Assembly: GCA_017625695.1 (NCBI GenBank) | Contig: JAGAKI010000058.1 | Coordinates: forward strand, 1-64,000 | Origin: Clostridia bacterium | GTDB taxonomy: Bacteria > Bacillota > Clostridia > UMGS1840 | Direction: 5' to 3' | DNA length: 64,000 nt | Shown here: piece after piece, positions 23,946-35,309 of the stretch | Layout: every line of letters begins with the position of its first letter | How positions within the stretch are numbered: the first letter of the stretch is position 1 | Translations under genes and position numbers: made by a program | Notes under the pieces: model-generated | What the model saw: only the letters and a program-made list of their open reading frames with translations | What the model was told of the DNA's origin: nothing | The model's database searches: none

Positions 23946-24074
23946 TTGGATTCCTTCTATGACATTGACAAACGTGCCGTACAGTTCGCCCGCTACATCA
24001 TCGAACACCGTGCCACCGTCAGAGATGTGGCAAAGCACTACGGCATTTCCAAGTCTACGGTACACACTGTTTAG
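23946..24074 (+). pseudogene. spoIIID: spoIIID, 5' part, interrupted by an integrated element
   Basis: TTG 23946, 5 bases after AGAGGTGA, starts MDSFYDIDKRAVQFARYII, followed by RATVRDVAKHYGISKSTVH. This matches the N-terminal half of the sporulation regulator SpoIIID, including the first two helices and the recognition-helix start (SKSTVHK). After codon 39 (GTA) the frame runs into the inserted element and stops at 24074. The remainder of the gene is at 35166-35309 in the same frame. SpoIIID is a small mother-cell DNA-binding protein that switches genes between sigma-E and sigma-K stages. The protein reconstructed across the element is 86 residues, near the usual size (93 in B. subtilis). 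As it stands the gene is not functional unless the element leaves. Confidence 0.92.
24060..24064. other. attL core of the spoIIID element
   Basis: GTACA is shared between the left junction (24060-24064) and the right junction (35163-35167). Joining the flanks at this core restores the spoIIID frame exactly (STVHKD). Confidence 0.85.
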
Positions 24075-24117
24075 AGTATCAGTGTAGGTTTATATGGATG
24101 ATAGAATATACTCATTA

Positions 24118-24163
24118 AAAACAAAGGAAACTGCTGATAAATAGGCAGTTTCCTTTGTTTTTA
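24118..24163 (-). terminator. Terminator of the methyltransferase fusion gene
   Basis: A 16-bp perfect stem with arms at 24119-24134 and 24145-24160 has T-tracts on both sides, so it may act in both directions. It also insulates the truncated spoIIID from the element. Confidence 0.85.
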
Positions 24164-26203
24164 TTCATAGTTGGTAATGGCTATTTCAACTGTTTCACCA
24201 GCATCTTTTCTGTTATAACTACTTCTGCTATAATCTCTATTAAGATAATAAATGTGAAAAACGCCTTTATACTTTACCTTGATTTTTTCAATCCATTCTA
24301 TAAGAATAGGATTTTCTTTACCGTTATTATGAGTAACATTAGACAACATCCACTTTATACCTTGTCTATGACAACTTTCCAAAAACTCATATAATTCATA
24401 TTCATCTTCTTCTCCCCAAAACTTATTATAGGAAGCAGTGCTGGCATAATATGGCGGGTCAGCATAGAAGAATATTTCATTTCTCTCCATACCCTCACGT
24501 GTCATATATTTATAATGGTTTGTATGAAAACTATAATCATCTTCATACAATTTCTTTGCAAAAGACAGGAATTTCTCTTTAGCTCGTTTCACATTAACCT
24601 TTTGCCTACCAAAAGAAGAATTGAATCCATAGCTTTCATTGTGATTAACTGTTGATGTATTAAAACTGTGATAAACAAGTGCCACGCCCCAATACCAATA
24701 TTTTTCAACACGTTCTTCATAAGGAATTTCATTATATTCATCTCTACATTTCTTGAAAGCACTTTCATCAGTAGCATTAAGACCATACTTATCAATTATT
24801 CCCTGAACCAAAGACCAAGCATCTTTTGGTGGTGTTACTGATAATGCTTTATATATACCAACAAGGAACTTATTACTCTCATTAATCAAAATACGCTTTG
24901 CTTTAACATTTATAGAAACAGTAGCCGCACCACCAAAAAGGTCAATGAAGTTAAGCTCCTCAATGTTTTTGGGAAATAACTTAAATATTTCAGGTAAGAG
25001 TTTATATTTGTTTCCAGAGTAGGCTATAAAAGGTTCAATATACCCTTGCTTTTTAGAAGATAACTTTATTTCTGGTTTTACAGATACTTCACGCCACCAT
25101 TTAGAAGGCAGAGCATACATAGGATGAGATTGTATATATTTCATATTATAAGCATAGTCAAATAAATTGCAGAGCATTGCTCTTAACCCTGACACATATC
25201 CTTTAGATAAAGCAACCCTACTGTCCTTACTACGATTATCCTTTACCTGATAATTTGTCAGCAGTTTATATAATCTGCTCAATTCTTCCTGTGTTTCTCC
25301 TATTTTAAGATTACCCATTGTATCTTTGATACGGGAGGAATAATAAGACAAATACTTCTTTTCTAAACTTGGCTTATCCTTACAAGCTATGGATATAAAC
25401 TCATTAAATACTTCATCTACCGTTTTATTCACATTTTCACAATCTTGTGTTGTAAGTGAAATAAGATGTTCTCTACGTGCTTTATTTGCTTCTTCTGCTG
25501 TAAAGAAAGAACCTTTTTCTATATTTATAGGAGTACCATCTGGCAACTTAATATTTATACGATAATAGTATTTAGAAGAGTTCTTCTGTTTTCTTACACC
25601 CGCATGTTCAGAATTATCATATAAACTGTTGGATGCTGCATAAAGGTCAACAATACCTTTCTTGGTTTCTGTAACATCAAAGCTGTCAAGTATTCTGTAA
25701 AGTAGTTTATCCCGCTTACCCTTTTTATCCAAATAGGTTATAAGGCTATCTTTGGAATAAATATGCCTACAACAGCAATTTGTAAATGAATTCTTATAAT
25801 CTGTTATATTTGCATCCCTTGAACCCCAACCACGAGTATCATCTGTAACATGTGCTATACCACCATACTTATTTAACCCTTGAGCCTTCAAGAATTCTAT
25901 TTTATCTACATAATACTGTTTTATTTCATCAGGCAGTTCTGTAAATTCTTCCCGATAAACACAGAAGAAAACTATACGATAATTACTGATACCCGTTAAT
26001 TTAACATATTCCAGACAAGCCTCTGTAGCTATAAGCCCAAACCCATCATCAACCTTTATATCCATACGAAACTCGCTGTCATCTATCTCACACGACAAAA
26101 GGTATTTAACTATATTATTTTTCAACTTCTTTTTAAGCTTATCTGATAAGTCGAAATATTCTCCTGAAGCACCGCTTAATACAACTTTCATTTTTATACC
26201 CAC
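24161..26203 (-). CDS. SLOG-like / integrase DNA-binding / D12 adenine methyltransferase fusion
   Basis: This 680-residue single reading frame has four visible parts. Residues 5-165 resemble the YpsA/DUF1273 SLOG fold (GFGLIATEACLEYVK; PDEIKQYYVDKIEFLKAQ; KDSLITYLD). Residues 205-250 (YYYRINIKLPDGTPI..., SFFTAEEANKARREHL) look like the arm-binding domain of Tn916-type tyrosine integrases. Residues 258-365 (TVDEVFNEFIS..., YVSGLRAMLCNLFDYAY) look like their SAM-like core-binding domain. Residues 388-680 are a Dam-type D12 N6-adenine methyltransferase with YSGNKYKLLPEIF, SAM-binding FIDLFGGAATVS and catalytic DPPYY (582-586). The integrase catalytic domain (Arg...His-x-x-Arg...Tyr) is absent, replaced by the methyltransferase. 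The first codon is GTG 26203; ATG 26191 (MKVVLSG) is an equally good start. Methyltransferase call is firm, integrase-like call good, SLOG call tentative. Confidence 0.85.
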   Translation of the reverse strand: MGIKMKVVLSGASGEYFDLSDKLKKKLKNNIVKYLLSCEIDDSEFRMDIKVDDGFGLIATEACLEYVKLTGISNYRIVFFCVYREEFTELPDEIKQYYVDKIEFLKAQGLNKYGGIAHVTDDTRGWGSRDANITDYKNSFTNCCCRHIYSKDSLITYLDKKGKRDKLLYRILDSFDVTETKKGIVDLYAASNSLYDNSEHAGVRKQKNSSKYYYRINIKLPDGTPINIEKGSFFTAEEANKARREHLISLTTQDCENVNKTVDEVFNEFISIACKDKPSLEKKYLSYYSSRIKDTMGNLKIGETQEELSRLYKLLTNYQVKDNRSKDSRVALSKGYVSGLRAMLCNLFDYAYNMKYIQSHPMYALPSKWWREVSVKPEIKLSSKKQGYIEPFIAYSGNKYKLLPEIFKLFPKNIEELNFIDLFGGAATVSINVKAKRILINESNKFLVGIYKALSVTPPKDAWSLVQGIIDKYGLNATDESAFKKCRDEYNEIPYEERVEKYWYWGVALVYHSFNTSTVNHNESYGFNSSFGRQKVNVKRAKEKFLSFAKKLYEDDYSFHTNHYKYMTREGMERNEIFFYADPPYYASTASYNKFWGEEDEYELYEFLESCHRQGIKWMLSNVTHNNGKENPILIEWIEKIKVKYKGVFHIYYLNRDYSRSSYNRKDAGETVEIAITNYE

Positions 26204-26216
26204 TTTTTATTCTTTA
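26195..26216 (-). repeat. Element-specific 22-bp motif, copy 1
   Basis: On the minus strand it reads TAAAGAATAAAAAGTGGG followed by TATA. It overlaps the start region of the methyltransferase fusion gene and lies just downstream of that gene's promoter. Near-identical copies occur at 27980-28001 and 32990-33011, only inside this element. Confidence 0.7.
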
Positions 26217-26225
26217 TCTATACTT

Positions 26226-26254
26226 TCAGTATAAACGATTTCAGAAAATAAATC
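26226..26254 (-). promoter_or_regulatory. Promoter of the methyltransferase fusion gene
   Basis: On the minus strand TTGATT, 17 bp and TATACT lie just upstream of the repeated motif and the start codon. Confidence 0.6.
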
Positions 26255-26361
26255 AAGTAGAAATGAATTTTTTTGATTTTATGCCATCATAATTTTTTGA
26301 CATCATATTTTCTATGACACCAAACTAATAAGATTTAATTCATCTTAAAAAATATAAAAAG

Positions 26362-26398
26362 AGAGGGGGTTTGTTGTTGGAATAACAACAAACCCCAA
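26362..26398 (-). terminator. Terminator after the 484-residue protein gene
   Basis: The hairpin GGGGTTTGTTGTT / AACAACAAACCCC is perfect over 13 bp and is followed in the minus direction by CTCTCTTTTT. It may also terminate in the other direction. Confidence 0.8.
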
Positions 26399-26469
26399 AA
26401 ATAAAATATTAAATATAACTTTTTACTCTAATTTCAACGATAAAATGTATTTTTATAAAATTTGATTAT

Positions 26470-27924
26470 TTAACTATGAAAATTATATTTTGCTCTTAAT
26501 GCCTCTCTAACTTCTTCAGAAGGTTCTTCAACAGGTGGTAAAACCACATTTACAACAGTTGATTGATGAGAACGCTCATCCATAGGATAGCCACGTTCAG
26601 CCCATAAGAAATATCTTCTGAATGTCATATGTTTGGGAGCACCTTGCATTTTACCCTCTGACTGTGCCTGTAAATACTTCATATATTGTCTATACAAAGG
26701 CTTTAACTCCCTTATAGGCACCCAAAATTTCTCGTGAACTTCACGAATTTCTTTACGTCTTTTCTTTTCTGCTTTCTCACGCTCACGCTGTTGGGCTTGT
26801 TCTATCTTATAATTTTCTTTAACTTCCGCTAATGTAAACTCATAAGGTTCAGTACAAACATATTCCTCATCCTTATAAGTTATAGTCTCATTAAACTTTT
26901 CATCTGTTTCTAATACATTAAAATAAATATCACTATTATATTTATCACAACCACCATAGACTTGTTCACAAATCAATTCTAATTCTTCTATATTACCATT
27001 CTTATCTATATACCCAAAAGCATAGGTTGATAAGATTGTTTCTTCTATTTCACTAAAATTCTTATATATATGCTGCATATTTTCAGGACAGATAAAACAA
27101 TAACCCGAATAATCACTCATATAAGAATACACCACAAAATCACCTCTAACACCATGATATACCCTAAAATAAATATTATCTGTTATTTCATCCTTACAAA
27201 CATAATAGTATTTTCTATGTGTGGGAATATTTAACTGATATTCATACATATCAGCTTCCTCAAAACCCCAACGATTTCTAAACATTTGTGCCTTTAACAT
27301 TGAAAGGTAAATTTTATGAATTGGAGAAAGGCTCAAATCTATAAAAGGAAGATAAAAATTATCTTCAAGCCATCTCTCATCTGCAAAGCTTAATGACTTA
27401 CCCTTTTGCTGCGTTACATAACGCTTAAACCCTTTGGAAGTAAACTGTGTTTTAGATAAATCCATATAATGTGGTTTGCACCAATATCTGAACTCATCTG
27501 CATTACACGCATTTTTCTTCTTTTCATCTATATAGGGAGATAAAACACTCATTCTACCATCCCTACGATTATAGGACCTGATATAAGACTTTTTCTTGAT
27601 TATATCTTTATACCCTAACACACAAATATAAAACTTGACAGCAATATCCTCGTGCTCTGCACGACTTCTTTGCTCATATTTTTTACAGGCAGTATCTTGA
27701 TTTGCCATATCACTACAACGAAGATACTCTTGAACTGATATCCTATAATTCTTTAACTTATCACTAAAAGTATCTAAAACAAACTGAACACAAACCTTCG
27801 TATTCTCATCTTTTTCATTTGATAAAGCCTTTTCAAGCATACCCAAACATTCCACACCAAGCTCTTCAACTGTTCTTATCAACGCACACGCTTGACCCTT
27901 ATAATAGATATTTATGTCCACCAA
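26470..27924 (-). CDS. Protein of unknown function in the element
   Basis: This 484-residue, probably cytoplasmic protein is not recognised. It starts at TTG 27924 or the adjacent GTG 27921. Visible features are many Lys, Tyr and Cys residues, a helical N-terminal half, a middle part rich in Tyr/Phe strands (RKYYYVCKDEITDNIYFRVYHG), and a strongly charged helix near 380-400 (REREKAEKKRRKEIREVHEKF) followed by a Pro-rich C-terminus. It is a single-gene unit between its own upstream copy of the 22-bp motif and a strong terminator. A DNA-related or regulatory role is possible, but no family motif supports it. Confidence 0.75.
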   Translation of the reverse strand: MVDINIYYKGQACALIRTVEELGVECLGMLEKALSNEKDENTKVCVQFVLDTFSDKLKNYRISVQEYLRCSDMANQDTACKKYEQRSRAEHEDIAVKFYICVLGYKDIIKKKSYIRSYNRRDGRMSVLSPYIDEKKKNACNADEFRYWCKPHYMDLSKTQFTSKGFKRYVTQQKGKSLSFADERWLEDNFYLPFIDLSLSPIHKIYLSMLKAQMFRNRWGFEEADMYEYQLNIPTHRKYYYVCKDEITDNIYFRVYHGVRGDFVVYSYMSDYSGYCFICPENMQHIYKNFSEIEETILSTYAFGYIDKNGNIEELELICEQVYGGCDKYNSDIYFNVLETDEKFNETITYKDEEYVCTEPYEFTLAEVKENYKIEQAQQREREKAEKKRRKEIREVHEKFWVPIRELKPLYRQYMKYLQAQSEGKMQGAPKHMTFRRYFLWAERGYPMDERSHQSTVVNVVLPPVEEPSEEVREALRAKYNFHS

Positions 27925-27979
27925 AAACCTATTACTGTAGATAAATGAATATATTTTTATAAATTTAGGAATATAAAAA

Positions 27980-28001
27980 TATACCCACTTTTTATTCTTT
28001 A
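27980..28001 (-). repeat. Element-specific 22-bp motif, copy 2
   Basis: It is identical to copy 1 over all 22 bases (TAAAGAATAAAAAGTGGG plus TATA on the minus strand). It lies 55 bp upstream of the start of the 484-residue protein gene. Confidence 0.75.
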
Positions 28002-28004
28002 CTT

Positions 28005-28045
28005 AGTAAAAAGAGAGCCTTGAACCCGTAGGCTCAAAGCTCCTT
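28005..28045 (-). terminator. Terminator after the 341-residue membrane protein gene
   Basis: On the minus strand GAGCTTTGA / TTCAAGGCTC forms a stem with one wobble, followed by CTTTTT. Confidence 0.65.
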
Positions 28046-28059
28046 AAAGTATTATTCAA

Positions 28060-29085
28060 TTATCTCTGCTTTTTCTTGCGAATAACAATCCCGATAGTAA
28101 AAGCAATCAAAAAGACTACTACAACTCCACCTATAACCCAACCTATATATTTCTTCTTGGGAACAGCAGGAAGTTCTAATGGTAAAGTTTCAGTTGATAC
28201 AGGAAGGCTCTCTGGTGCAACTATGCCTTTTTGAACATCAGCTGGAAGAAGAGAATATAGTTTTGACAAATCTTCTGTTTTCATTTCATAATCCTTTGCC
28301 ATAAGCCTACTCATAAATAAGGCATTATAATCTACTTCACCAAATCTTGATACTGCACCATAATAAACAAGTTGGTCACTTGCATCTAATAACTCAATGT
28401 AGAGAACTGTTTTATAAGCATCTGTTGAATTAGGATTTTGTTTTGTTTCATAAAGAATATCATTCTTTACATTAGTAACCATAATATCTTCTGCAAGTTC
28501 AAAGAATTTATCTTTATCAATTACACAAACGTTATCCTGTATACGTAAGGATACCTTTTCAACACATGAACTTGACAAAGAAGGCTTTTTATATAAAAAT
28601 TCTGCAAAACTTATCTGATTACCTATTGTTGAACGTTCTTGTTCTGCCCTAGCAAAGACACCTTCATTTAGATAATCTTCTAATCTCTTTGTCATATCAT
28701 ACTTATCTGAATCAACTAATTTGATAGACTTTTCATCTCTTGACTTTATTTCATAAGCATAGAAATTATTTTCATCAATATACCCAAATAAATATTCCTT
28801 GCCTTTTTCCAACATTAAAACACTATCATATCTTGTATAGGTTTCTTTCTTGCCAATTTCAACTTCACCTTTAATTTTTACAGTAGGTATTACATCCACA
28901 GTATCTATTTCTGCTTGTGAAGAAAAACTAATGTTCCCTTTAAGTTTGACATTATCAACTCTACCAATAAAAACTTTTGCACCATCTTCACTTAACAGGC
29001 TTTCAGGTACATCTCCAGCAAATACTGATATTGACAAAGAAAGCATGAAGACCAATATACTCAATAAACATATTAACTTTTTCAT
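28060..29085 (-). CDS. Secreted, membrane-anchored protein of unknown function
   Basis: This 341-residue protein has a signal peptide (MKKLICLLSILVFMLSLSISVFAG), an extracellular region of about 280 residues, and a C-terminal transmembrane helix (YIGWVIGGVVVVFLIAFTIGIVI) followed by RKKKQR, giving an outside-facing type I topology. No LPxTG motif is present. It starts after a strong AAGGGGGGC ribosome site that overlaps the end of the 151-residue gene upstream, so the two are translationally close and probably one operon. Function is unknown. Confidence 0.8.
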   Translation of the reverse strand: MKKLICLLSILVFMLSLSISVFAGDVPESLLSEDGAKVFIGRVDNVKLKGNISFSSQAEIDTVDVIPTVKIKGEVEIGKKETYTRYDSVLMLEKGKEYLFGYIDENNFYAYEIKSRDEKSIKLVDSDKYDMTKRLEDYLNEGVFARAEQERSTIGNQISFAEFLYKKPSLSSSCVEKVSLRIQDNVCVIDKDKFFELAEDIMVTNVKNDILYETKQNPNSTDAYKTVLYIELLDASDQLVYYGAVSRFGEVDYNALFMSRLMAKDYEMKTEDLSKLYSLLPADVQKGIVAPESLPVSTETLPLELPAVPKKKYIGWVIGGVVVVFLIAFTIGIVIRKKKQR

Positions 29086-29096
29086 ACAAGCCCCCC

Positions 29097-29552
29097 TTAA
29101 TCTACTAACGCTTTTTCAAGAGCTTCTTTTGCCTCTCTTAATATTTCTGCATTATTAAACCCATCATTAGGAACATTCTTTATACTGTGATACAGCTCTT
29201 CATCCATATTTAATGTAGTTATAGCACCATAGCCAGAAGATTGAGATAATACACCAATTATGTAATTTAAGTCTGCATTATTATGTTTGCTATACGAACT
29301 ATATTGAAACAGATGAAGAAGATTATAACTATGCTTTGTGTTTTCTGTTTTGTACTTATGGATAGCAGCCTCACTAATATTATCAACTGTTTCATTTATT
29401 AGGTTTAATGTTAATTCATGATAACTACTTGCAAATGTTTGGTCTATATTTTTCTGTAACCAATCTCTTTCCGATTTCACTTTTATAAAACCTATGAAAA
29501 GAACAATCAGCAAGACAATAAGAATAGAAATTATTATTTTTGATTTTTTCAT
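29097..29552 (-). CDS. Small single-pass membrane protein of unknown function
   Basis: This 151-residue protein has one N-terminal transmembrane helix (IIISILIVLLIVLFIGFIKV) and a mostly helical outer or cytoplasmic domain. It is preceded by an AAAGCGGTGAT ribosome site and followed 11 bp later by the 341-residue membrane protein. It could be a partner of that protein and the SLH protein upstream. No family is recognised. Confidence 0.75.
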   Translation of the reverse strand: MKKSKIIISILIVLLIVLFIGFIKVKSERDWLQKNIDQTFASSYHELTLNLINETVDNISEAAIHKYKTENTKHSYNLLHLFQYSSYSKHNNADLNYIIGVLSQSSGYGAITTLNMDEELYHSIKNVPNDGFNNAEILREAKEALEKALVD

Positions 29553-29616
29553 ACAATATCACCGCTTTTTATATTTTCCGTGCGTTAAAGATACATCAAC
29601 CTTTATGTGACCAAAA

Positions 29617-32172
29617 TTATTTAATCTGTTCAATTTCTTTTACAGTTAAAATACCTTTTTCTAATAAGTAATCAGCGAATACAGTTTTGTCATCCATCTG
29701 CGTTTTCAAACTGTTGTAAACTATCTGTACCATATCACTTCTTGTAAATGTTTTTTTCTTTGTCAACTCATCAATCTTTTCTTCGGGGAGCAACTTATAC
29801 TCAACACTTTTTTCAAGTGCAGTATCAGGATTTACTTCTGTATATCCAAGCAGACGCATCATTAAGGTAATAAACTGATTTGCATCAATCTGAACATCAG
29901 GAGAGAATGTATCAGTTCCTGTGCCTTTGGTGATGTTGTGTTCGTAGCAATACATTACATAAGCATAAGACCATCTATCCTTATCAACATCAACAAATAC
30001 TTCGTCAAAATCGTCTGCATCCACTTTGTTTTCTTCGCCAAGTAATCTTACAAGGATAGTTGCACTTTCTTCTCTTGTAAGACTCTTTTCAAGTTCGTAA
30101 CCCTTATCTGTCCCTTTGAACAATCCAAAGTCATAAAGTGTATCAGCGCATTCCTGAGCTTCACGCAGAACAACCTCTTTGTCCTTTTCAACAAATTCCT
30201 CTGCAAGTTTTTTATCATCCGTTAATTGTGCATATTTAAGATTAGAGCATTTTGCATTATCAAAATATACTTCATAAATATCATTATCTCTAAATATCAG
30301 TTTCAAATCATATTTATCATACGGAGTCAATGTACCATAATTGAATAATTTTTCGCCTTCGCTTCTGCAATATGTGCTAAATGAAATCGGTATATTGTTT
30401 GAGTAGATTTCTTCATCTCCACTTAATGACGATTGATTTGTTTTCCACAAAGACACCTCGCCTAAATCACCCGAAAGTTTCAATATGTATGTAGATTTAT
30501 AATTGTTTTCTTTATATCTTTCAAAAACCGCTTTTATTGTTTTACCAGGTGTTGCGATATGTTTTGCTACATAATCATTACTTCCTATTGCCTGCTTAAA
30601 TTCAAATTCTATAACATCTGTTTTGGTTAAACCCTTTATAGTTCCGTGCTGTTCAGGTTCAATATTATCTTCACTATTTTTATTTTCAAAAGTTAAAAAT
30701 TTATTCTTTGAATAATCATAGATGTAGTCAATCAATTTAGAAGCATCTTTAACAGAAACGGCTACCGCACTGTTACCGCTATTACTTTGATTAGTAATAT
30801 ATACGCTATCACTTGATATTTGTATTTCAAAGTCGCTGGTTAACCACTTGCCATTTTCTTTGTATCGAAGTTTGAAGTCACAATACGAATACTTATCTGA
30901 ACTCATAGAGCCTACGCCTGTTTTTTGCTTTTCAATCTCTGTAAACAGACCATTTATAAAATTAGTCAATTCGGTTTTATTGCTTTTTTCAACATAAGTA
31001 TGTTTTGCACCATAGTCATCTGCAGTTTTTAAAATTTTTATTGAAATATATGAATCTTCTTCCATAAGTGATACGAAGTTCATAAGGCTGTCTTTTTCTT
31101 TTTTCAGTAAAGTTTCAACAAGTTCATTGTCAGTATTATCATCAACAATAGAATTGTATTTTTTATCAAAAGATATTTTCCCAGTTATAGGCAAATAACC
31201 ACTTTGTTTATATTTTGACATATCTATAATTTCAGTTTCGGGCGATGCTCCCGAATAAACATTTTTATATGTCATAACTGCATATTCAACTTGTTTGTTA
31301 TCATTTACATTCACTTTCAGTTCAAAATCATTAGTCAAACTGAAATTCATATCGTATTCAATTCCGTCCGTACTTTTTTCAAAGTATACAACTCTTTTAT
31401 TGTCAAAGACAATTTTATTATTTTTAATTTCAGTTTCTGTCAAAACCCTTAAAAATTCCATATCTTCAAATGTAAGATATGCTACTGTTACTGGAGTGGT
31501 TTCGTTTTCTCTTGTGTATGAACATATACCCCATGAAAAATCACTTCCAAAGTTTCCAAGAGGGAACGAAGCTAAGTAGATTTGTTTCAGGTCATATACA
31601 TTTATTTGATTTTCGTGTTTTTCTTTTTCTGATTCGCTCGGCTTATCTTCAGAAGGATTATTCGGAGTATTTTCTATATCATTTGTATCTCCTTTTGCAA
31701 TATTATCAAAAAAAGCACGAAAAGAATTATACATTGTATCAAGTTTATAACTAAAAAAGCCGTGTCTAAATGTTTTATTTATAGGGTCAACGCACCTTGC
31801 ATACACTTCTTTTTCATCAAAAGCGATAATCCAATTACCGTCATTTTCGTCTAAAAACTCAACATAACCCTTTTTAGGAAATAAATCATCTGTTGTTTCA
31901 AGAGCTTCTGTTGTTTTCATATCCACAAAAGAAAGTTTTTCATCTGAAAGAACTTGAAGCATAACCTCGCATTCTTCATATGTCATATGTTCTTTGTTCA
32001 AGTAAACCCTTTCACCGTTGTAATCATAGCTTACTTCCATATTATCGTAAATATACTCCAAGTCGCCATAATTACCAAGACTATCAAGTGCCTCATAATT
32101 ACCTGAAGCAAAAGCACCTATGCTTGAAAGCACTATAATCCCTATTAAAACTAATGCTAAAATTCTTTTCAT
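29617..32172 (-). CDS. SLH-domain surface protein carried by the element
   Basis: This 851-residue protein has a signal peptide (MKRILALVLIGIIVLSSIGAFASG), a long region without recognised motifs, and C-terminal SLH repeats (about 665-850: LYDFGLFKGTDKGYELEKSL, VDKDRWSYAYVMYCYEHNIT, GTDTFSPDVQIDANQFITLM). It should sit on the cell wall. The ribosome site is AAAGGATGAT. A structured RNA with a terminator lies between its start codon and the upstream promoter, so it may be regulated by attenuation. A surface protein is unusual cargo for a sporulation-gene interrupting element and could alter the mother-cell or vegetative surface. Confidence 0.85.
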   Translation of the reverse strand: MKRILALVLIGIIVLSSIGAFASGNYEALDSLGNYGDLEYIYDNMEVSYDYNGERVYLNKEHMTYEECEVMLQVLSDEKLSFVDMKTTEALETTDDLFPKKGYVEFLDENDGNWIIAFDEKEVYARCVDPINKTFRHGFFSYKLDTMYNSFRAFFDNIAKGDTNDIENTPNNPSEDKPSESEKEKHENQINVYDLKQIYLASFPLGNFGSDFSWGICSYTRENETTPVTVAYLTFEDMEFLRVLTETEIKNNKIVFDNKRVVYFEKSTDGIEYDMNFSLTNDFELKVNVNDNKQVEYAVMTYKNVYSGASPETEIIDMSKYKQSGYLPITGKISFDKKYNSIVDDNTDNELVETLLKKEKDSLMNFVSLMEEDSYISIKILKTADDYGAKHTYVEKSNKTELTNFINGLFTEIEKQKTGVGSMSSDKYSYCDFKLRYKENGKWLTSDFEIQISSDSVYITNQSNSGNSAVAVSVKDASKLIDYIYDYSKNKFLTFENKNSEDNIEPEQHGTIKGLTKTDVIEFEFKQAIGSNDYVAKHIATPGKTIKAVFERYKENNYKSTYILKLSGDLGEVSLWKTNQSSLSGDEEIYSNNIPISFSTYCRSEGEKLFNYGTLTPYDKYDLKLIFRDNDIYEVYFDNAKCSNLKYAQLTDDKKLAEEFVEKDKEVVLREAQECADTLYDFGLFKGTDKGYELEKSLTREESATILVRLLGEENKVDADDFDEVFVDVDKDRWSYAYVMYCYEHNITKGTGTDTFSPDVQIDANQFITLMMRLLGYTEVNPDTALEKSVEYKLLPEEKIDELTKKKTFTRSDMVQIVYNSLKTQMDDKTVFADYLLEKGILTVKEIEQIK

Positions 32173-32211
32173 AAAATCATCCTTTCTGGTTTATCAACCA
32201 ACAAAATAAAT

Positions 32212-32245
32212 AAAAAATGCACCACCCATATTGCAGAGTGATGCA
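32212..32245 (-). terminator. Intrinsic terminator of the structured RNA
   Basis: On the minus strand TGCATCAC / GTGGTGCA (one wobble) is followed by TTTTTT. It ends 40 bp before the SLH gene start codon. Confidence 0.7.
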
Positions 32246-32398
32246 CTAAAAACGCACATAACCCTGAATGATAGGTTGCTAGACACTAATCAATATACTT
32301 CTCTACAAAGCATTTCAGAGTAGTACGCTTTTAACATAGCGTACACTTCGTAGAGAAAAATATACTAATCCCAGTATATTGATTTTATAGTATCTAGC
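32212..32398 (-). ncRNA. Structured RNA of about 187 nt (stand-alone RNA or attenuator leader)
   Basis: A promoter at 32405-32433 would start transcription at about 32398, exactly at a 119-nt interrupted hairpin (32279-32397). Its arms pair in layers. The outer stem pairs CTAGATACTA with TAGTGTCTAG, next ATCAATATACT with AGTATATTGAT, then TTCTCTACGAAG with CTTTGTAGAGAA, and an inner hairpin is GTACGC/GCGTAC. A terminator follows. The pairing extends over roughly 40 bp and is too long and layered to be chance. It does not match a T-box, CRISPR or other class I recognise. It could be a regulatory leader of the SLH gene or a small RNA of the element. Confidence 0.65.
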
Positions 32399-32404
32399 AT
32401 AACT

Positions 32405-32433
32405 ATTATAGCACATAGATGTCAAAACATCAA
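32405..32433 (-). promoter_or_regulatory. Promoter of the structured RNA
   Basis: On the minus strand TTGATG (32428-32433), 17 bp and a perfect TATAAT (32405-32410). Confidence 0.65.
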
Positions 32434-32477
32434 TAGGCAGCAATAAAAAACAATATTTTATATACAAATTTGTAAAA

Positions 32478-32507
32478 AAGAGGTGGGATTTTCCCCACCT
32501 CAACTTG
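32478..32507 (-). terminator. Terminator after the 134-residue protein gene
   Basis: On the minus strand GAGGTGGG-GAAAAT-CCCACCTC is followed by TTTTTT. Confidence 0.85.
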
Positions 32508-32518
32508 TGTAAATTATT

Positions 32519-32923
32519 TTATTTTTTATTTAACTCATTCAACCTACTTTTAAGTTCTTCTGCTGAACCCACCAAAGAGAATACAGCCTCATGAACTATT
32601 TTCCGCCAATCATCACTATCAAACCCCTCTATACGCTGTTTGACAACCTGACAAATACTATCCCACAAAGTTACATCAGCACCATTACCAACAAAGCTAT
32701 CTAATATACCTTTATTGAAATGAGCCTCATTATAAAGTTCCTGAACATTAGCAGGTAAAGCTTCATAATCTGGGAATATAAATGAATTTATTGTATATCC
32801 CGATTCACTAAACCTTTTGACTTCTTTTTCATAAAGTTCTGATTGACAGACAGTATCCATATCATCTGTTATGAAATAGATATTAACTTCTTTTTTGTTT
32901 GAATTTTCTCGTGTTATTACCAT
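32519..32923 (-). CDS. Small soluble protein of unknown function
   Basis: This protein of about 134 residues starts MVITRENSNKKEVNIYFITD at ATG 32923, chosen because AAGAAAGGAG lies just upstream; longer in-frame starts have no ribosome site. It has no membrane segment. The C-terminal 60 residues are helical (LWDSICQVVKQRIEGFDSDD; SLVGSAEELKSRLNEL). Its promoter (TTGACT, 17 bp, TATCAT) lies just downstream of a copy of the 22-bp motif. It might be a regulator or an excision accessory factor of the element, but no helix-turn-helix is evident. Confidence 0.7.
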   Translation of the reverse strand: MVITRENSNKKEVNIYFITDDMDTVCQSELYEKEVKRFSESGYTINSFIFPDYEALPANVQELYNEAHFNKGILDSFVGNGADVTLWDSICQVVKQRIEGFDSDDWRKIVHEAVFSLVGSAEELKSRLNELNKK

Positions 32924-32989
32924 AGTAAAATTTCTCCTTTCTTGGTTTGTACAGATGATACCGTATACCAAATCTAAAGTCAAGAAAAA

Positions 32990-33011
32990 TATACCCAGTA
33001 TTTATTCTTTA
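32990..33011 (-). repeat. Element-specific 22-bp motif, copy 3
   Basis: It matches copies 1 and 2 except for three central bases (TAAAGAATAAATACTGGG plus TATA on the minus strand). Here it lies just upstream of the -35 box of the 134-residue protein gene. Confidence 0.65.
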
Positions 33012-33110
33012 TTTTTGTTGAAACTTATGAAAAATCCTGTAACAGCATATATAGTCATACAGTTTACATATACGATACTTATTTAGGCATATATCATAAC
33101 ATTTACCTGT

Positions 33111-33198
33111 ATGAGAGTACAGAATTGCAAAATTCGAGTACTTAATGTCAGGTGGAAAATATATGATAAATAAGAATAATAAGGGTTGTACTCTCATA
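33111..33198. other. 11-bp inverted repeat upstream of the small candidate accessory gene
   Basis: TATGAGAGTAC (33111-33121) and GTACTCTCATA (33188-33198) are perfect complements 66 bp apart. They lie between the divergent small genes and may be an operator or RNA stem. The rest of 33012-33234 is AT-rich without a gene. Confidence 0.45.
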
Positions 33199-33234
33199 GA
33201 TTGTCAGTATAAGAATAGTCAAGGTGGTGAAGAG

Positions 33235-33369
33235 ATGCAGGACAAGGAATGTGCTGTATCAAAATCAATAACACCCGAAATGCTTTTACTGATAAGGGAA
33301 GCTTTAGCAGATGGAATAGCAAGAACATTGGTTTATACGGCCATTACTGAATTACATAAAAATGATTAA
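33235..33369 (+). CDS. 44-residue protein upstream of the recombinase
   Basis: ATG 33235 follows AAGGTGGTG, an excellent ribosome site, and encodes MQDKECAVSKSITPEMLLLI and a helical remainder ending TAITELHKND. A longer in-frame start at 33145 lacks a ribosome site. It is the only gene between the divergent region and the recombinase promoter. Small genes next to large serine recombinases often encode recombination directionality factors, so this is a candidate for the excision switch. That is inference from position only. Confidence 0.55.
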   Translation: MQDKECAVSKSITPEMLLLIREALADGIARTLVYTAITELHKND

Positions 33370-33394
33370 ATATAAACATAAATTTCAAAAATAA

Positions 33395-33423
33395 TTGACG
33401 CTGCTAATCAAATCTGCTATAAT
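33395..33423 (+). promoter_or_regulatory. Sigma-A-type promoter of the recombinase
   Basis: TTGACG (33395-33400), 17 bp, TATAAT (33418-33423). This is a vegetative-type promoter, unlike the mother-cell promoter of the skin recombinase gene spoIVCA. Confidence 0.75.
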
Positions 33424-33466
33424 ACATTTGTAAGATTGAACAGATGTTACAAGGAGTTTATTGAAT

Positions 33467-35170
33467 ATGAGAGCAGTAGCATACGTCAGAGTTTCTACAA
33501 GTAAGGAAGAACAGTTACCCTCGCTGGAGAACCAAACAGAGTATTTTGAAAAATACGTTGTCAGCAGAGGGGATGAACTGATTAAGATATATAGTGACAG
33601 AGGTAAATCTGCCACTAAAATGAAAAACAGAAAAGAACTGAACAATATGCTTAAAGCAGCAAGGGCACATAAATTTGAAAAACTTTATGTTAAAGACATC
33701 AGCAGATTGTTTAGAAATACTTTGGATTTTATTATAGTTTCCAGAGAACTTCAAGATTTAGGAATACAATTACATCTGGTTAATATGGGTGAGGGAAAAG
33801 ATATAGATACCTTCACCCTTAATTTGATGGCAATGGTTGCTGAGCAAGAAAGTCAAAAAATAAGTGAGAGAGTTAAGTTCAGCAAAAAGATGAGTAAAGA
33901 GAGAGGTATTGTGCCTAATTTTGTATTTGGATATGACAGAATTGATAAATACACATTAGTACCAAACGAAACTGAAAGCTATTGGGTAAAAAGAGTATTT
34001 GACCTATATACAGAAGAAGGTTGGGGTATGGCTCGTATATCTAAACTTTTATACGAGAACAAAGTGCAAACTAAAAAGAAAAAAGATGGACAACCCAACT
34101 ATAATTGGTCACAGCACACTGTTGGTATGTTATTACGAAACAGATTATACACAGGTCTTGTAATCAATGGTAAAGAAGCAACTAAAAATATTTATACAAC
34201 AGAAAGATTACAAATACCTGAAGAAAAATGGTATATAACTGAAAGACCTGAATTTAGAATTATATCAGATGAGCAATTTGAGAAAGCACAAAAGCTAATG
34301 GTTGAAAATGCAAAACTGTTTCCTACTGCAACTAAAAAAGGTGATGAAACAGGTATGAGAAGAAGTGATAAGCACCTATTCTCTAACTTAATTAAATGTG
34401 ATAGTTGTGGATTTTCTTACCGACGCACGCAAAAGCGCTATTCTGAAAATAGACCAATGAAGGTATGGTGGACATGCTCAAAAAGAAGTGCTTATGGTAC
34501 AGAGCGTTGTAATGCAGAGTATATAAGAATTGAAGAAGATTGGTTAAAAGAGGGATTAAACAACCTATTCAACTATCTAATTCAAGATAAAGAAAACTTT
34601 TTCCAAACAATAGAAAGCAAATGCCAAAAACTCATACAGCAGTATATTCAAGAAACTTCTGGATTTGACATAGACGAGTTAAAGGACAGCATAGATGACT
34701 TGAATGAACAAAGAGATAGATTGAAAACTCTTGCTGTTAAAGGTCTTATCACTATGGAAGAAGCAGAACACGATATGATACCCATTAACAAGGAATTAGA
34801 AAAACTTAACTTCTCATTACACCAAACAGATAGAACACGTGAAGTAACTAATATGGTTAAGAATAATCTTGAAGAGTTTTTACAACGATTTAATGACTTT
34901 AACTTTTCTGAAAATATTGAAAATGCTGACTTGAAGAAGATAATAAAGGAGATACGAGTTAAGAGTAAAGAAGAAATATATGTTTACTTTAACGTGGATG
35001 ATGACCTCTATAATTTACAATTCCCAATTAACCTTTCAGGCATATTTTTACCACCTGAACCCCCAAAAGGAAAAGGGAAAAATAGAACCAAAACAATTGA
35101 AGAAGCACCTAATAACAACGAAAATGTAGGTTCTGAACAAACCTACACCAACACTAACAACAGTACATAA
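33467..35170 (+). CDS. Large serine recombinase of the spoIIID element
   Basis: This 567-residue site-specific recombinase should integrate and excise the element at the GTACA core. The resolvase domain spans about 1-145, with catalytic Ser10 in YVRVSTS and the IYSDRGKSAT and LYVKDISRLFRN motifs. The recombinase domain spans about 150-270 (FGYDR..., MLLRNRLYTGLVINGK). The zinc ribbon has Cys311, Cys314, Cys337 and Cys348. A coiled coil (about 403-455) is typical of large serine recombinases and controls directionality. ATG 33467 is 10 bases after AAGGAG; an in-frame TTG at 33461 is possible. The last codons (AGT ACA) lie in the right att core and the stop codon is provided by the host spoIIID sequence, so the C-terminus changes on excision. 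It is oriented outward toward the right junction. Confidence 0.95.
   Translation: MRAVAYVRVSTSKEEQLPSLENQTEYFEKYVVSRGDELIKIYSDRGKSATKMKNRKELNNMLKAARAHKFEKLYVKDISRLFRNTLDFIIVSRELQDLGIQLHLVNMGEGKDIDTFTLNLMAMVAEQESQKISERVKFSKKMSKERGIVPNFVFGYDRIDKYTLVPNETESYWVKRVFDLYTEEGWGMARISKLLYENKVQTKKKKDGQPNYNWSQHTVGMLLRNRLYTGLVINGKEATKNIYTTERLQIPEEKWYITERPEFRIISDEQFEKAQKLMVENAKLFPTATKKGDETGMRRSDKHLFSNLIKCDSCGFSYRRTQKRYSENRPMKVWWTCSKRSAYGTERCNAEYIRIEEDWLKEGLNNLFNYLIQDKENFFQTIESKCQKLIQQYIQETSGFDIDELKDSIDDLNEQRDRLKTLAVKGLITMEEAEHDMIPINKELEKLNFSLHQTDRTREVTNMVKNNLEEFLQRFNDFNFSENIENADLKKIIKEIRVKSKEEIYVYFNVDDDLYNLQFPINLSGIFLPPEPPKGKGKNRTKTIEEAPNNNENVGSEQTYTNTNNST
35163..35167. other. attR core of the spoIIID element
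   Basis: GTACA at the right junction overlaps codons S566-T567 of the recombinase and codons 39-40 of spoIIID. Confidence 0.85.
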
Positions 35171-35309
35171 AGACGTAACTTCCCGACTTCGGCACATCGA
35201 CTGCGACCTGTACGATAAGGTGAGAGCAATTCTCAATCAGAATAAAGCGGAACGCCATATCAGAGGCGGGATGGCAACCAAACGAAAATATGAAGCACGG
35301 GAAAGCTAA
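35166..35309 (+). pseudogene. spoIIID: spoIIID, 3' part
   Basis: In frame with the 5' part, CAT AAA GAC... encodes HKDVTSRLRHIDCDLYDKVR, then ILNQNKAERHIRGGMATKRK and YEARES, ending at TAA 35309. The RHIRGG-AT-KYK pattern is the conserved C-terminal basic tail of SpoIIID. It has no start codon or promoter of its own, so it can be expressed as SpoIIID only after excision of the element. Confidence 0.92.

Follow-up and report, generated by a model that had tools for sequence, protein, structure and literature searches.

What does a protein do that appears to join the DNA-binding domains of a tyrosine integrase to a Dam-type adenine methyltransferase, and is the join genuine? A gene of this kind lies near one end of a mobile element in the stretch of DNA analysed here (64,000 nucleotides, hereafter the window). 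Comparison of its sequence confirmed the fusion of integrase arm- and core-binding domains with a Dam-type methyltransferase; for its function we can offer a tentative reading and several rivals. The coordinates of all features are collected in Table 1.

Table 1 Features of the fusion gene and of the element that carries it.
Feature	Position	Strand	Remarks
Fusion gene, 680 aa	24161..26203	minus	single open frame, one copy in genome
Residues 1-200, orphan region, possibly alpha/beta	25604..26203	minus	SLOG unsupported
Residues 201-252, AP2-like arm-binding domain (Arm-DNA-bind_4, PF14657)	25448..25603	minus	6.6e-4
Residues 258-372, SAM-like core-binding domain of tyrosine integrase, four helices	25088..25432	minus	BLASTP, AlphaFold2, 2kd1, profile
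Residues 388-680, D12/Dam-family N6-adenine methyltransferase	24164..25042	minus	PF02086, TIGR00571, T4 Dam
Residues 512-535, target-recognition loop	24599..24670	minus	R to N (520), F to H (521), P to S (530); originals conserved in 13/13 relatives
Residues 582-585, DPPY catalytic motif, intact	24449..24460	minus	alignment with 13 relatives
Terminator-like perfect 19-nt inverted repeat	24116..24163		directly 3' of fusion-gene stop codon, T-rich on both strands
Terminator of upstream 484-aa gene	26366..26396	minus	
484-aa orphan gene	26470..27924	minus	no match in any library searched
Repeat copy 1, TAAAGAATAAAAAGTGGGTATA	26195..26216	minus	overlaps 5' end of fusion gene
Repeat copy 2, TAAAGAATAAAAAGTGGGTATA	27980..28001	minus	upstream of 484-aa gene
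Repeat copy 3, TAAAGAATAAAAAGTGGGTATA	32990..33011	minus	just upstream of TTGACT-17-TATCAT promoter of small gene ending at 32519
Mobile element, about 11.1 kb	24060..35167		GC shift, shared core, att-like arms
Large serine recombinase (Resolvase, Recombinase, Zn_ribbon_recom)	33461..35170	plus	domain matches; right end of element
spoIIID 5' part, split by element	23946..24065	plus	
spoIIID 3' part	35163..35309	plus	

The original prediction described one 680-residue frame at this locus, leaving its strand unstated. The frame is indeed uninterrupted, and it is so only on the minus strand; the plus strand of the same segment has many stops. It starts with GTG at 26203, with an alternative in-frame ATG at 26191 (MKVVLSG...), and the first copy of a 22-bp repeat overlaps the start and leaves the true start codon in doubt. 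Terminators lie on both sides of the gene and, given that the upstream 484-aa gene has its own, the fusion gene forms its own transcription unit.

Residues 201-372 are, by profile comparison and structure prediction, homologous to the arm- and core-binding domains of Tn916-type integrases, as had been proposed. A profile built from eight tyrosine-integrase N-termini, with the row of the fusion protein left out, scored this region at 61.6 bits, as against at most 6.1 for 200 shuffles, and BLASTP aligned it to the tyrosine integrase of a fetched locus (L058; 27% identity over 186 residues, E=4e-11). The frame is also among the matches of the PF14657 profile (22.3 bits with neighbours in frame), and AlphaFold2 models residues 201-252 as three strands and a helix (pLDDT about 80). 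The model is mostly confident over residues 201-371, with block means of about 72-95 and a dip around residues 321-330, and its best meaningful PDB match is the integrase-like domain 2kd1 (prob 0.99, TM 0.68 on target). Identity to any integrase in the alignment is only 15-25%. Neither the protein nor any other part of the element has a tyrosine-integrase catalytic domain (R...HxxR...Y, PF00589), in agreement with the suggestion that the methyltransferase stands in its place.

The first 200 residues are a different matter. They had been called SLOG-like, and a nucleotide-sensing role had been drawn from this, and neither found support. Pfam, PADLOC, NCBIfam, hhalign against YpsA-type SLOG, single-sequence AlphaFold2 and Foldseek were all blank for SLOG: Pfam, followed to an E-value of 10, gave only a sub-threshold match to DUF1828, hhalign against nine YpsA/SLOG proteins returned a probability of 0.03, under the best shuffled controls, and an AlphaFold2 model of about residues 5-200 failed (pLDDT 32). 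Structure prediction thus upheld the integrase fold and left the SLOG fold without backing. The first model of the full protein hints, at low confidence, at alternating helices and strands in residues 1-200, and a beta-alpha alternation, judged by eye, is possible, so that a SLOG fold is still conceivable. Neither residues 1-200 nor residues 1-392 have relatives in 398 genomes of the phylum, phages, plasmids or viral contigs, and matches in 391 genomes of the class were at chance level.

Residues 388-680 constitute a D12 adenine methyltransferase of the T4-Dam/FokI-M2 type, with matches to PF02086 (3e-25, 89.9 bits against a cut-off of 22), to T4 Dam (1.6e-34) and, barely above the curated cut-off of 114.85, to TIGR00571 (115.1 bits). 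The methyltransferase profile covers these residues only, and no second D12 domain accompanies them, so the protein is not a double methyltransferase of the FokI type. The predicted FGG and DPPY motifs were found: in the METHYLTRANSFERASE, the cofactor and catalytic motif positions conserved across 13 relatives are all retained, among them the SAM-binding and catalytic residues K399, D421, G425 and D582-P583-P584-Y585.

Conservation breaks down in the target-recognition loop, which has, besides the three substitutions of Table 1, a one-residue insertion in the alignment with the 13 relatives. A few more of the conserved positions are altered, chiefly 391-394, close to where the domain begins, together with 428, 587 and 618. 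In HMMER alignments, on which the T4 and E. coli residues were numbered by hand count, N520 and S530 align to R116 and P126 of T4 Dam and to R124 and P134 of E. coli Dam, and the residue matching T4 R130 is replaced as well. E. coli Dam reads the fourth base pair of GATC with R124 and the third with P134 (PMC10073500). With N520 and S530 at these GATC-reading positions, GATC specificity is not expected, and we file the protein as having a Dam-family fold rather than as a GATC methyltransferase. The replacements fit equally well with targeting by the fused module, with a changed intrinsic specificity and with decay.

The element itself contains no GATC (24070-35160; 27-32 expected), so that a GATC methyltransferase would find no target in the DNA that carries it. 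GATC is also scarce in the flanks within the window (60 against about 200 expected), and a restriction enzyme that cuts at GATC, present in the host range, may lie behind the depletion. CTAG, CATG and TCGA are low in the same stretch of the element too.

We looked for further carriers of the fusion among methyltransferase relatives from the 391 genomes of the class (65 matching) and the 398 of the phylum (83 matching), among viral contigs (115 relatives, 80 kept) and in 711 phage and 86 plasmid records. No record covers 80% of the fusion-protein query. Among the matches listed, the best cover only about residues 371-680, and the integrase part and N-terminus have no match in the phage or plasmid records. 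Among 145 loci carrying a methyltransferase frame, the integrase profile matches none but the fusion gene itself, fetched several times; where no locus had been fetched for a match, it was assessed from frame length alone. The survey of carriers proposed in the original prediction thus yielded no second one and, as no relative shares the fusion, selection for the arrangement is not measurable. The expectation that no protein of this domain order had been described also held in the literature searched, of which coverage was partial.

Other long D12 frames from the class and phylum searches (L006-L008, L010, L013-L016, L172, L204 and L205) are tandem, double methyltransferases. These loci and L206 were considered as further integrase fusions, and none matches the integrase profile; in L206, positions 1168-2889 form one open frame that we read as a RadC-like N-terminus followed by a D12-like methyltransferase domain. 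In two viral contigs, L130 (3877-5760) and L135 (3193-5110), a tyrosine integrase gene and a D12 gene of another subfamily lie on the same strand and share a few bases.

The element, with the gene at its left end, has a GC content of about 32%, compared to about 43% outside. It splits spoIIID, which encodes a mother-cell sporulation regulator. Combined, the two halves score above the TIGR02844 cut-off; the genome has no spoIIID besides the split one, and in four genomes of the same genus the gene is uninterrupted. The element ends share the core GTACA (24060-24064 and 35163-35167), just inside which lie inverted copies of the arm ACTGTT...GTGTAGGTTT (score 28; maximum 27 in 500 random comparisons). 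Arms and core together look like those expected of a serine-integrase attP. The enzyme that moves the element is a large serine recombinase, not a tyrosine integrase, which weakens the earlier idea that methylation at integrase sites controls excision. No phage structural genes and no recognisable restriction enzyme were found in the element, and the 484-aa protein has no relative in any collection searched. Further cargo includes a protein of 851 aa (29617-32172) that looks secreted and has an S-layer homology motif.

A 22-bp repeat occurs three times in the element, each time on the minus strand and on the 5' side of a minus-strand gene. With up to two mismatches allowed, neither the rest of the genome nor 59 other genomes have a further copy, and no viral contig contains it exactly. 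The repeat is probably a promoter or operator element common to these genes, and would be a first candidate site of the fused DNA-binding module.

We wondered what combination of these features would make sense as one enzyme. Our best explanation, which we hold tentatively, is that the protein is an active N6-adenine methyltransferase of altered specificity, positioned by its integrase-derived module and carried as cargo by a spoIIID-splitting serine-integrase element. The module, derived from the N-terminal part of a tyrosine integrase, would grip DNA and bring the Dam-type catalytic domain, with its own reading of GATC altered, to particular sites, which would fix where methylation falls. 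The methylated sites may lie on the element, for example at the 22-bp repeats of its own promoters, and could there serve regulation. What the gene and its surroundings offer directly to this explanation are the fusion, both homologies, the intact SAM and catalytic motifs, the substituted base-reading residues, the separate transcription unit and the context. Such an arrangement is known to work when engineered: in DamID, a weakened Dam joined to a DNA-binding protein leaves methylation largely confined to the binding sites of that protein (PMC6567924). Against positioning by the module stand the recognition residues, which suit a new intrinsic specificity or decay just as well, the unexplained N-terminal 200 residues, and the repeats, to which another protein might bind instead or which may be no more than promoter elements. 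That the captured module, not the methyltransferase loop, picks the sites, and that it marks sequences of the element (possibly the 22-bp repeats, its own included) as an epigenetic switch, is a doubtful proposition.

The main rival, which we regard as somewhat unlikely, sees in the protein a methyltransferase of the ordinary sort, protective or orphan, that targets a new short motif. Its integrase part would lend only general DNA affinity, and it would shield the element from a restriction enzyme or work with a neighbour, for instance the 484-aa gene, as a restriction-modification pair. In favour of this rival are the nearest relatives of the domain (second halves of FokI-type double methyltransferases, which belong to restriction systems), the best PADLOC models (type II methyltransferases), the restriction-modification genes carried by the gin element in gerE (PMC5595907) and the avoidance of GATC in element and flanks, which suggests restriction pressure in the lineage. 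A protective enzyme is harder to reconcile with the lack of a recognisable restriction enzyme in the element and of the partner first methyltransferase of FokI-type systems, and it leaves the capture of specific integrase domains unexplained. The role in defence that had been suggested earlier gained no specific support, the PADLOC matches being generic type II or orphan methyltransferase models only.

Next comes the proposal, which we judge improbable, that the gene is a chimaeric relic, left when recombination cut short an integrase gene beside a methyltransferase gene, and that, expressed or not, it has no selected function. The gene is a singleton without relatives and its conserved recognition residues are substituted, as a relic's might be, and the co-oriented, overlapping integrase and D12 genes of L130 and L135, although of different subfamilies, mean that a simple route to such a fusion exists. 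Against a relic speak the 680 stop-free codons in AT-rich DNA, intact catalytic motifs, complete arm- and core-binding domains, terminators of its own and a promoter-region repeat in common with other genes of the element.

It is very unlikely that the protein is directed at a tyrosine-integrase system, where it would occupy and methylate the attachment or arm sites of a rival integrative element, or of a previous version of its own, and so block excision or entry. In a Tn916-type integrase the captured domains are those that recognise the site, and the genome has several tyrosine integrases, one of them with a PF14657 arm domain (at C71). At 15-25% identity to any aligned integrase, however, a shared site is not expected, and the element itself uses a serine recombinase. 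Finally, an assembly or frameshift artefact that joined separate genes, an outcome that the original prediction had named as one refutation, is scarcely credible even for a genome assembled in 84 contigs: both junctions of element and spoIIID are exact, both halves of the protein are complete domains with clean boundaries, GC is uniform along the gene, which has its own terminator, and neither a second integrase half nor a stray integrase catalytic domain lies in the element or nearby.

If the captured module does set the place of methylation, the protein would be a natural counterpart of engineered targeted methylation of the DamID kind, the DNA-binding parts of integrases could be recruited as address labels for DNA-modifying enzymes, and an element that splits a master regulator of sporulation would own a site-specific epigenetic mark. 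New here are the replaced GATC-reading residues of the loop, the spoIIID-splitting carrier, the GATC-free element and the element-specific 22-bp repeat.

The catalytic domain shares its SAM and DPPY motifs and their order with T4 Dam and the Dam family (TIGR00571, PF02086; 1yfj), which lack the N-terminal extension of about 390 residues. It is about 30-37% identical to the M2 halves of FokI-type enzymes (those of loci in L006-L016; M2.MhoVII is another such half). As in FokI-type double enzymes, the protein is large and in two parts with the D12 domain C-terminal; unlike in these, an integrase-derived part and an orphan region take the place of a second methyltransferase in the N-terminal half. 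Tn916/Tn1549-type tyrosine integrases have the arm- and core-binding domains in the same order, followed by a catalytic tyrosine-recombinase domain where the fusion protein has its methyltransferase. Engineered DamID fusions likewise combine an adenine methyltransferase of weakened DNA reading with a sequence-specific DNA-binding module, whereas the present protein is natural and bacterial, has other substitutions, and its targeting is only predicted.

Gene-splitting elements are known in sigK, gerE, spsM and yabG, and no report of one in spoIIID was found in the literature searched, itself covered in part. By arrangement, with a split gene here and an empty site in relatives, the carrier classes as a gene-intervening element like skin and gin. 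As is the case with skin, gin and yin, a recombinase element splits a sporulation gene, the likeness being one of gene arrangement, and as in gin, which is without phage genes (PMC5595907), no phage structural genes are recognised; the difference is that the gene split here is spoIIID.
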